DNA of 64,000 bases from Chakrabartia godavariana. GTDB lineage: Bacteria; Pseudomonadota; Alphaproteobacteria; Sphingomonadales; Sphingomonadaceae. The position numbers and the translations under genes are program-made. Of the stretch, positions 29,500 through 42,533 are shown piece after piece. Position 1 is the first letter of the stretch. Each line of letters begins with the position of its first letter. The stretch spans positions 186,001-250,000 of the forward strand of contig RKSN01000001.1 in NCBI GenBank assembly GCA_005518185.1, written 5' to 3'. Below the pieces are notes generated by a model. It was not told where the DNA came from. It saw only the letters and a program-made list of their open reading frames with translations, and did no database searches.

Positions 29500-29533
29500 C
29501 GTCGCCCCGTGCTCGACACGGGGCTTGGCTTTT
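29500..29533 (+). repeat. Palindromic repeat, copy A
   Basis: Core CCCCGTG-ctcga-CACGGGG, a 7-bp perfect hairpin, followed by CTTGGCTTTT. First of four copies in 630 bp; pairs as an inverted repeat with copy B 50 bp away and shares its CTCGA loop. The 29464-29771 gap otherwise holds no gene. Confidence 0.85.
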
Positions 29534-29580
29534 ATTGCGCGGGTGTCCGGCAAGCGGGGCACTGATACCGGACGAAGGTT

Positions 29581-29615
29581 AGCCTAGCCCCGTGTCGAGC
29601 ACGGGGCGACGTGGG
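29581..29615 (-). repeat. Palindromic repeat, copy B (inverted)
   Basis: Inverted copy of the same element: AGCCTAGCCCCGTGTCGAGC onward, ending ACGTGGG. Same CTCGA loop variant as copy A. Confidence 0.85.
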
Positions 29616-29706
29616 TGAGAATGCGAAGGGCGCCAGCTTCGAACTTTGCGACACGGACGCACGTTCCCCGCTGATGAAAGACCGGCACAAAGCCCACGTC
29701 CTTCCC

Positions 29707-29740
29707 CGTCGCCCCGTGCTTGACACGGGGCTTGGCTTTT
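29707..29740 (+). repeat. Palindromic repeat, copy C, upstream of GIY-YIG gene
   Basis: Core CCCCGTG-cttga-CACGGGG followed by CTTGGCTTTT. The loop carries TTGA rather than TCGA, the same variant as copy D. It lies 31 bp before the GIY-YIG start codon. Confidence 0.88.
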
Positions 29741-29771
29741 CTTGTACCGCTCCCTTCGGCATCATGCCCGA

Positions 29772-30095
29772 ATGGAAAAGGGCGGCTGGGTTTACATCAT
29801 GGCAAACCGCTATCGCGGTGGGATGTATGTGGGCGTGACCGCGGACCTGGCCCGGCGCGTGGGACAGCACCGCGAGGGCATCGGTTCGACCCACGTTGTG
29901 GATTTCGACAAGCGGCGGCTCGTCTATGCCGAGCGCCATGAGGACATCGACGCGGCGATCGCCCGCGAAAAGCTGGTCAAGAAGTGGCGCCGCGAGTGGA
30001 AGTTTGCCCTGATCGAGGCGGATAACCCCGAATGGGTGGACCTTTGGGAGCAATGGTATCCGACCAGTGAGGGGCCGAAACCCGACGGCGCTTAG
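29772..30095 (+). CDS. GIY-YIG nuclease-domain protein
   Basis: 107 residues. The GIY-YIG fold is shown by GWVYIMANRYRGGMYVGVT with ADLARRVGQHREG after it, and the acidic metal residue lies in AIAREKLVKKWRREWK; the tail LIEADNPEW is standard for this small, single-domain subfamily. By family it would be a DNA-cutting domain, but the role of these stand-alone members is unknown. The ATG at 29772 opens the domain; a longer upstream frame is not supported. It is boxed by inverted palindromic repeats C and D. Confidence 0.88.
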   Translation: MEKGGWVYIMANRYRGGMYVGVTADLARRVGQHREGIGSTHVVDFDKRRLVYAERHEDIDAAIAREKLVKKWRREWKFALIEADNPEWVDLWEQWYPTSEGPKPDGA

Positions 30096-30127
30096 CCAAG
30101 CCCCGTGTCAAGCACGGGGCGACGTGG
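30094..30127 (-). repeat. Palindromic repeat, copy D (inverted), downstream of GIY-YIG gene
   Basis: Inverted copy with the TTGA loop, matching copy C. It overlaps the last two bases of the GIY-YIG stop codon. Copies C and D thus form an inverted pair around the gene. Confidence 0.88.
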
Positions 30128-35580: not shown

Positions 35581-35670
35581 CCCGCGCTCGCCCTGAGCCT
35601 GTCGAAGGGCCGCATTTCCCTGCTCACCAAAGTAAACGGACCACCCTTCGACAGGCTCAGGGTGAGCGGG
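35581..35670. repeat. Inverted palindromic repeat between convergent genes
   Basis: Arms of about 27 bp (35581-35609 and 35644-35670) share CCTGAGCCTGTCGAAGGG and enclose 34 bp. It lies between the GST stop and the convergent pirin stop. The repeat is of the widespread sphingomonad type that gives artefactual peptides such as ARPEPVEG and LRQAQGER. It could serve as a two-way terminator. Confidence 0.85.
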
Positions 35671-42459: not shown

Positions 42460-42533
42460 TCCGTTTGTCCCGAGCGAAGTCGAGGGACGTGGTCTCGGCG
42501 CTGCGTGTCTCGACTTCGCTCGACACGAACGGA
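42460..42533. repeat. Inverted palindromic repeat inside the crt cluster
   Basis: Left arm (42460-42487) and right arm (42508-42533) share GAGCGAAGTCGAG with flanks TCCGTT; near-perfect inversion around 20 bp. It occupies the 169-bp gap between crtI and LOG genes and may mark a transcript boundary within the cluster. Confidence 0.8.

Follow-up and report, generated by a model that had tools for sequence, protein, structure and literature searches.

A single-domain GIY-YIG nuclease gene enclosed by CGTC-tagged REPs in Chakrabartia godavariana, a candidate partner for a large family of bacterial repeats

Introduction

The closest described systems are those that join REPs to a RAYT transposase (REPtrons; REPINs). 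A REPtron is recognized by a HuH/Y1 transposase gene (PF01797), by REPs that carry a GTAG tag and by the position of the gene between two inverted REPs; enzyme-REP co-evolution together with a correlation of abundance is a RAYT criterion of the 2010 RAYT paper (PMC2817692). The CGTC REPs surveyed by Di Nocera and colleagues in 2013 are defined by an unpaired CGTC (or TGTC/CCTC) tag, a stem of 8-9 bp, a loop of 4-5 nt and a CCA-like tail; they are described there as not associated with transposase genes and as elements that “apparently lack a dedicated transposase”, and the survey suggested that the CGTC enzyme is extinct or was replaced (PMC3733652). The same survey states that REPs inside hypothetical ORFs of <120 aa were omitted from the intragenic set (PMC3733652), and this may be one reason, in our own view, why a nuclease gene that usually encodes 95-115 aa went unnoticed.

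A literature search for a link between GIY-YIG proteins and REPs, with subscription papers and preprints lying outside it, returned nothing relevant. By word search of the accessible text, “GIY-YIG” is absent from the 2025 RepRanger paper and from the 2010 RAYT paper (PMC2817692), and “palindrom” is absent from the 2006 GIY-YIG phylogenomics paper (PMC1564403).

A GIY-YIG gene between inverted REPs

The stretch analyzed here (the window) comprises 64,000 nucleotides of the C. godavariana genome. A sequence-only reading of it had described four palindromes (A to D), with C and D head-to-head around a GIY-YIG gene and A and B as a second inverted pair just upstream. All four were located in the sequence with the loop variants it had given, TTGA in C and D and TCGA in A and B, and the orientation of both pairs was as described; the claim that A and B are a separate pair did not stand, as they are a deleted copy of the same unit. 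The features, by position in the window, are as follows:

29500..29530, plus strand: REP A, left end of a miniature (internally deleted) unit, TCGA loop
29542..29580, plus strand: 3' remnant of a GIY-YIG unit, enclosed in the A/B miniature; the match continues through REP B to 29619
29581..29611, minus strand: REP B, right end of the miniature unit, TCGA loop
29707..29737, plus strand: REP C, left end of the intact unit; CGTC tag, stem-loop GCCCCGTG-CTTGA-CACGGGGC, tail TTGGCT
29767..29775, plus strand: CCCGAATGG, 5' copy of a 9-nt direct repeat, deletion point of the common miniature form
29772..30095, plus strand: single-domain GIY-YIG nuclease gene, 107 aa (PF01541, E 1.5e-13; alignment with relatives)
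30027..30035, plus strand: CCCGAATGG, 3' copy of the 9-nt direct repeat, 260 bp from the 5' copy
30094..30124, minus strand: REP D, which closes the intact unit on the right in the orientation opposite to C and shares 2 nt with the nuclease stop codon

The stop codon of the nuclease gene (TAG, 30093-30095) thus contains the first nucleotides of REP D, and at the level of sequence the structure of the unit is established. The palindromes have the common form CGTC[stem-loop]CCA-like tail; those of the window read CGTC[GCCCCGTGCTTGACACGGGGC]TTGGCT, so that tag and hairpin fit the CGTC superfamily while the tail deviates from CCA. Like the members of that superfamily, they occur mainly as head-to-head dimers, dispersed and in many copies. 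The window palindromes are CGTC-tagged REPs. With CGTC-1 to -4, including Neisseria dRS3 and Rickettsia RPE-4/RPE-6, the elements described here share the CGTC tag, a stem of 7-9 bp, a loop of 4-5 nt, the CCA-like tail, the head-to-head dimers and a mainly alphaproteobacterial distribution, as the survey describes it (PMC3733652). Whereas the survey gives no dedicated enzyme, a candidate partner gene is identified here.

Pattern counts over the 3.17-Mb genome gave 37 exact copies of the core CCCCGTGYYYGACACGGG(G) and none of the reversed control pattern, and the window palindromes are therefore not due to chance. Chance palindromes were rejected on this control and on a position control of 0.16% (see below); simple terminator pairs were also considered and rejected. 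Most copies form head-to-head (plus, then minus) pairs with 75-130 bp from core to core, and the pair around the window nuclease gene is spaced by 389 bp. The same genome holds nine GIY-YIG hits, one of which is UvrC; six of the eight short genes lie between inverted palindrome pairs of different REP families, and the remaining two have palindromes on the downstream side only. The window also contains two geneless head-to-head pairs of other REP types, a type IV pair, CTGAGC..TGTCGAAG, at 35593/35646 (35593-35660) and a type V pair, CGAGCG.AGTCGAG, at 42471/42509 (42471-42522).

In comparison with REP-RAYT systems, the window unit likewise has a short gene enclosed by an inverted REP pair, but its tag is CGTC, not GTAG, and its gene encodes no HuH/Y1 transposase, the GIY-YIG enzyme being unrelated to Y1/HuH in sequence. 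The C. godavariana genome gave no hit to the RAYT/Y1 transposase (PF01797); such a transposase was seen in 13 of 59 genomes of the family, and most of the GIY-YIG-rich ones gave no hit. A RAYT acting in trans was rejected on these grounds.

The GIY-YIG enzyme

The window protein has PF01541 as its sole Pfam hit (51.2 bits against a cut-off of 22.6, E 1.5e-13) and displays the GIY and YIG motifs together with the Tyr, Arg and Glu, plus His and usually Asn, that characterize the GIY-YIG superfamily, as Y8, Y19, R29, H33, E66 and N85. The first five of these active-site residues are conserved in 111-112 of 112 aligned REP-flanked proteins; N85 is kept in 85 of 108 proteins and replaced in 23, mostly by W, in type IV/V lineages. 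We take the conserved residues of the REP-linked enzymes to correspond to the catalytic residues of I-TevI. GIY-YIG homing endonucleases of the I-TevI type have the same catalytic domain but reside in an intron, an intein or a phage intergenic site and carry C-terminal DNA-binding NUMODs, whereas the window enzyme is a chromosomal 107-aa single domain, located between REPs, with no DNA-binding tail or NUMOD and no intron or intein, and its element has REP ends and miniature derivatives. A group I intron or homing setting was rejected, the window protein matching PF01541 only and consisting of a single domain.

The closest solved structures by sequence are the UPF0213 proteins 1ZG2 and 1YWL (E 2.6e-10 and 7.4e-7). 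While these UPF0213/YhbQ-like proteins also consist of a single GIY-YIG domain, the REP-linked clade gives much higher scores with a profile built for it and ends in a conserved NPxWxDL, and weakly matching beta- and gammaproteobacterial relatives have no flanking REPs.

Bracketing across genomes

Bracketing was scored by local alignment of the region upstream of a gene with its reverse-complemented downstream region, with a cut-off of at least 18. The family set consists of all 107 non-UvrC loci among the matches listed in 59 genomes of the family, UvrC-like loci (open frame of about 620 aa or more) being excluded; one of the 107 (L031) was scored for this count in a wrong-strand reading (22.5). 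A score of at least 18 was reached at 81 of these 107 loci and at 14 of the 8603 controls, which were taken by sliding along these stretches and are positions rather than genes; the rates are 76% and 0.16%. Outside the family, in 150 genomes of the phylum, 30 of 41 strong profile matches were bracketed against 0 of 780 control positions, and three of 23 weak matches (all three alphaproteobacterial) against 0 of 809; this sample of 41 strong and 23 weak rows excludes one locus cut by a contig end and several fragments. The recurrence of the arrangement lies far above chance. GIY-YIG genes thus lie near the palindromes more often than chance allows, as the sequence-only reading had wanted checked, and an even spread of palindromes with no link to GIY-YIG genes, for which the same data were tested, was not what was found. 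Many of the loci below the cut-off (26 of 107 in the family, 11 of 41 outside) retain one REP.

Among named records, scored against control positions within each locus, 10 of 12 loci were bracketed, and they span alpha-, beta- and gammaproteobacteria, a cyanobacterium and a Bacteroidota. They include a locus on Novosphingobium aromaticivorans pNL2 whose REP is identical to that of the window, loci of Azospirillum lipoferum, Rhizobium, Shinella and Aeromonas, a locus of Neisseria gonorrhoeae with dRS3-like REPs and, more weakly, loci of Planktothrix and Spirosoma (scores 16 and 14). The two that were not bracketed belong to Rhizobium tumorigenes and Photobacterium.

Since CGTC REPs are common and intergenic (PMC3733652), it could be argued that REPs simply accumulate downstream of genes and that the nuclease gene is merely one that has a REP on each side. 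Such a coincidental insertion preference is hardly credible given how rarely control positions along these stretches reach the cut-off. Bracketing is not seen at other GIY-YIG genes, the count being 0 of 18 for the weakly matching beta- and gammaproteobacterial loci, single-domain relatives outside the REP-linked clade that we take to be UPF0213/YhbQ-like; REP type follows the protein lineage over unrelated loci, and the miniatures carry the 3' end of the nuclease gene, as described in the next sections.

Three further loci were observed. On a Planktothrix plasmid (L175, about 4000), a REP-flanked GIY-YIG gene has a type IIL restriction enzyme (MmeI) on one side and the DISARM helicase drmA on the other. 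Another REP-flanked gene (L215:1247-1486) is annotated “excinuclease ABC subunit C”, and the “REP-decorated” repair genes of the 2013 survey may include misnamed GIY-YIG genes (PMC3733652). A decayed GIY-YIG copy with an internal stop and without the start of the domain (L168, G000:C3:158787-158963) is still flanked by double type IV/V-like palindromes.

Enzyme lineage, REP type and copy number

Over 85 loci, six REP types were distinguished by analyst-defined patterns, and both arms were of the same type in all 79 loci in which both could be typed. Types IV and V (L110, L291, L292 and others) have stems with tandem G-A mismatches (GTCCTGAGCTTGTCGAAGGAC) and are paired with a divergent enzyme clade, often without the C-terminal Asn (W in its place); in comparison with the CGTC REPs described so far, these two types and a GTGCTCC subtype enlarge the set.

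On the protein tree, from which the decayed copy L168 is excluded, the six types require 10 changes against a shuffled mean of 49.2. An earlier tree that included unflanked loci gave 27 changes against 67.8; it contains the wrong-strand reading of L031, while the 10-change tree contains the right one. When each protein was compared with its nearest neighbor from a different genome, the REP types matched in 77 of 84 cases, whereas 2000 shuffles gave a mean of 17 and a maximum of 33. Flanks were similar in 31 of these 84 pairs and unrelated in 51, and 44 of the 51 pairs without flank similarity shared the REP type, so that the match is not merely due to vertical inheritance of the locus; paralogues of the same genome had a common REP type in just 13 of 93 pairs. 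By these comparisons gene and REP co-segregate across loci and genera, and REP type follows the enzyme lineage rather than the host or the locus, much as gene and REP types co-vary in REP-RAYT systems.

The window's REP occurs in four of the 59 family genomes, with 37, 8, 1 and 1 copies, and all three family genomes with the window's enzyme clade carry it. Within the genus it is present in all four genomes with a close orthologue (40, 44, 6 and 7 copies) and in two of nine in which none was seen; G066 and G067, drafts of 96% and 91% completeness in which no close orthologue was seen, hold 22 and 15 REPs. Family genomes in which the matching gene was seen have more REPs of type I (p=4e-7) and, likewise, of type IV (p=3e-4); the cross-correlation between the two types is weaker (p=0.016 and 0.077). 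Of the 47 genomes that lack a typed type IV gene, 29 also hold copies of the type IV REP. As in REP-RAYT systems, gene presence thus predicts REP copy number, and the present system shares both this correlation and the co-evolution of enzyme and REP with them.

These data also bear on the idea of a host-serving nuclease that trims REP hairpins in replication, as a processing or repair enzyme, and is kept by REPs because it is expressed or preserved there. The strictly conserved active site, the 31 of 84 nearest-neighbor pairs with similar flanks (stable vertical inheritance) and the lack of flanking REPs at all 18 beta- and gammaproteobacterial single-domain relatives outside the REP-linked clade are in line with it. 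It is nonetheless improbable: the patchy presence, the decayed copies with stops and the many unrelated sites (51 of 84 pairs) look selfish, and each paralogue in a genome owns a different REP.

Miniature units

Head-to-head cores of five REP types show a bimodal spacing, with 322-434 bp and one case of 554 for gene-bearing pairs (n=45) and 29-125 bp and one case of 188 for geneless pairs (n=38). Dispersed miniature head-to-head pairs are a further likeness to REP-RAYT systems. Miniatures of the window's REP, about 165 bp long, occur in four congeneric genomes; in them the unit's 5' end runs straight into the final ~60 nt of the nuclease gene, which the right REP follows, and the break points share the 9-nt CCCGAATGG. 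In a non-random set of 15 dispersed pairs (similarity-search hits and some own-genome pairs, with L223, L224 and L239 left out of the alignment), the 3' end of the nuclease gene is retained in 11, and the coding remnant exceeded all 200 shuffles; in the own-genome pairs (L230-L234, L238) such a remnant was found in three of six. In the window itself, the full unit of the congeneric genome G065 has a match to its 3' end at 29542-29619 (83% over 78 nt, E 3e-18).

As judged from these alignments, the A/B pair is an internally deleted copy of a unit of the C-GIY-YIG-D type, and the dispersed REP pairs likewise represent internally deleted units. They correspond in this respect to MITEs, non-autonomous copies that share their ends with a gene-bearing copy and derive from it by internal deletion.

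Orthologous sites and junctions

Near the window locus, one of two genomes has a gene-bearing unit and the other a deleted unit at the same site. At the orthologous place, an independent deletion has left G065 with a unit that retains both gene ends, and G066 has no REP between the same flanks. In A. lipoferum 4B, a unit with REP pairs lies between sufB and sufC, a site without REP in four Azospirillum relatives; empty sites, which the sequence-only reading had proposed to compare in related strains, do exist. At the fnrL site of Sphingobium megaplasmids, a unit is present in two of the strains shown, absent from two and represented in two by one palindrome tagged at both ends. In the latter two strains, TomTYG74 and TomTYG64 (L211, L212), a single palindrome with a CGTC tag at either end (CGTCACCCCGGGTCAAGCCCGGGGTGACG) occupies the place of the full unit seen in relatives, and it may be an excision scar, a slippage deletion between the CCCCGGG stems or a pre-insertion target.

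Shared flanking words of five or more nucleotides, taken as target-site duplications, were found at none of 60 loci against 2.4 expected, and this is a likeness to REP-RAYT systems. Four Sphingobium megaplasmid stretches gave no clean insertion junction other than the known fnrL site and a type IV pair whose junction is uncertain, and very close strains showed no new insertion relative to each other. The presence and absence of units at orthologous sites, itself established by comparison, fits a putatively mobile unit.

GIY-YIG domains are classic homing nucleases (PMC1564403), which raises the question as to whether the nuclease cuts REP-bearing or REP-free alleles and gene conversion then copies the unit, the REPs being targets and not transposon ends. 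The site near the window that bears the gene in one genome and a deleted unit in another, and the absence of target duplications, speak for such a homing-type element. We consider it possible but rather unlikely, because the sufB-sufC site occupied in A. lipoferum is REP-free in the four relatives, because the deleted copy of G065, with both gene ends kept, is an in-place deletion and not a converted miniature, and because homing alone would not produce hundreds of miniature pairs.

A proposed mobile element and its meaning

The reading that we prefer, and hold to be quite probable, is that the C-GIY-YIG-D unit is an autonomous short mobile element whose enzyme would mobilize itself and its deleted derivatives via cognate REPs. 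The two head-to-head CGTC-tagged REPs would be the ends of the element and the single-domain GIY-YIG nuclease its sole gene. The enzyme most likely recognizes the REP cognate to it in the form of a hairpin (single strand) or a cruciform and nicks or cuts near the CGTC tag; the freed unit, or the break, could then be copied to a new place with host repair enzymes, and internally deleted derivatives (REP pairs, REPINs) would be copied or moved in trans. Movement might proceed by cut-and-paste, by single-strand peel-and-paste or by break-induced copying. Both that the enzyme cuts REPs and that cutting drives their dispersal are what we infer from sequence comparisons.

The sequence-only reading had likened the locus to REPs bracketing a RAYT transposase, with a GIY-YIG nuclease instead, and had thought it a mobile or repeat-maintaining unit. 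Enrichment, co-segregation of REP type and enzyme, copy-number correlation, miniatures and empty sites all support the likeness, and the genome-wide and cross-genome tests argue for a mobile or repeat-maintaining unit, with mobility and an action of the enzyme on REPs as its putative properties. The system is most likely a RAYT-like autonomous/miniature one run by an unrelated nuclease, in which cleavage and transposition are presumed.

REPs are among the commonest bacterial repeats, and half of the known REP superfamilies were without an enzyme. Of the two great families of bacterial repeats, one has long lacked a partner that spreads or maintains it, and the GIY-YIG nuclease probably fills that place. 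On balance, and with chances only somewhat better than even, the unit may represent a new class of bacterial mobile element in which a lone GIY-YIG domain, without transposase or recombinase, recognizes and mobilizes the hairpin ends cognate to it, and the enzyme may be the one that the CGTC REP superfamily lacks throughout, Neisseria dRS3 as well as the alphaproteobacterial REPINs. If this is true, REPIN-type genome parasites, or REP systems, arose at least twice, on unrelated nucleases. One specific, cloneable nuclease for each REP type makes the question of the CGTC enzyme directly testable, and the finding offers a hypothesis of function for many small genes that bear no annotation beyond “GIY-YIG nuclease family protein”, “hypothetical protein” or “excinuclease ABC subunit C”.
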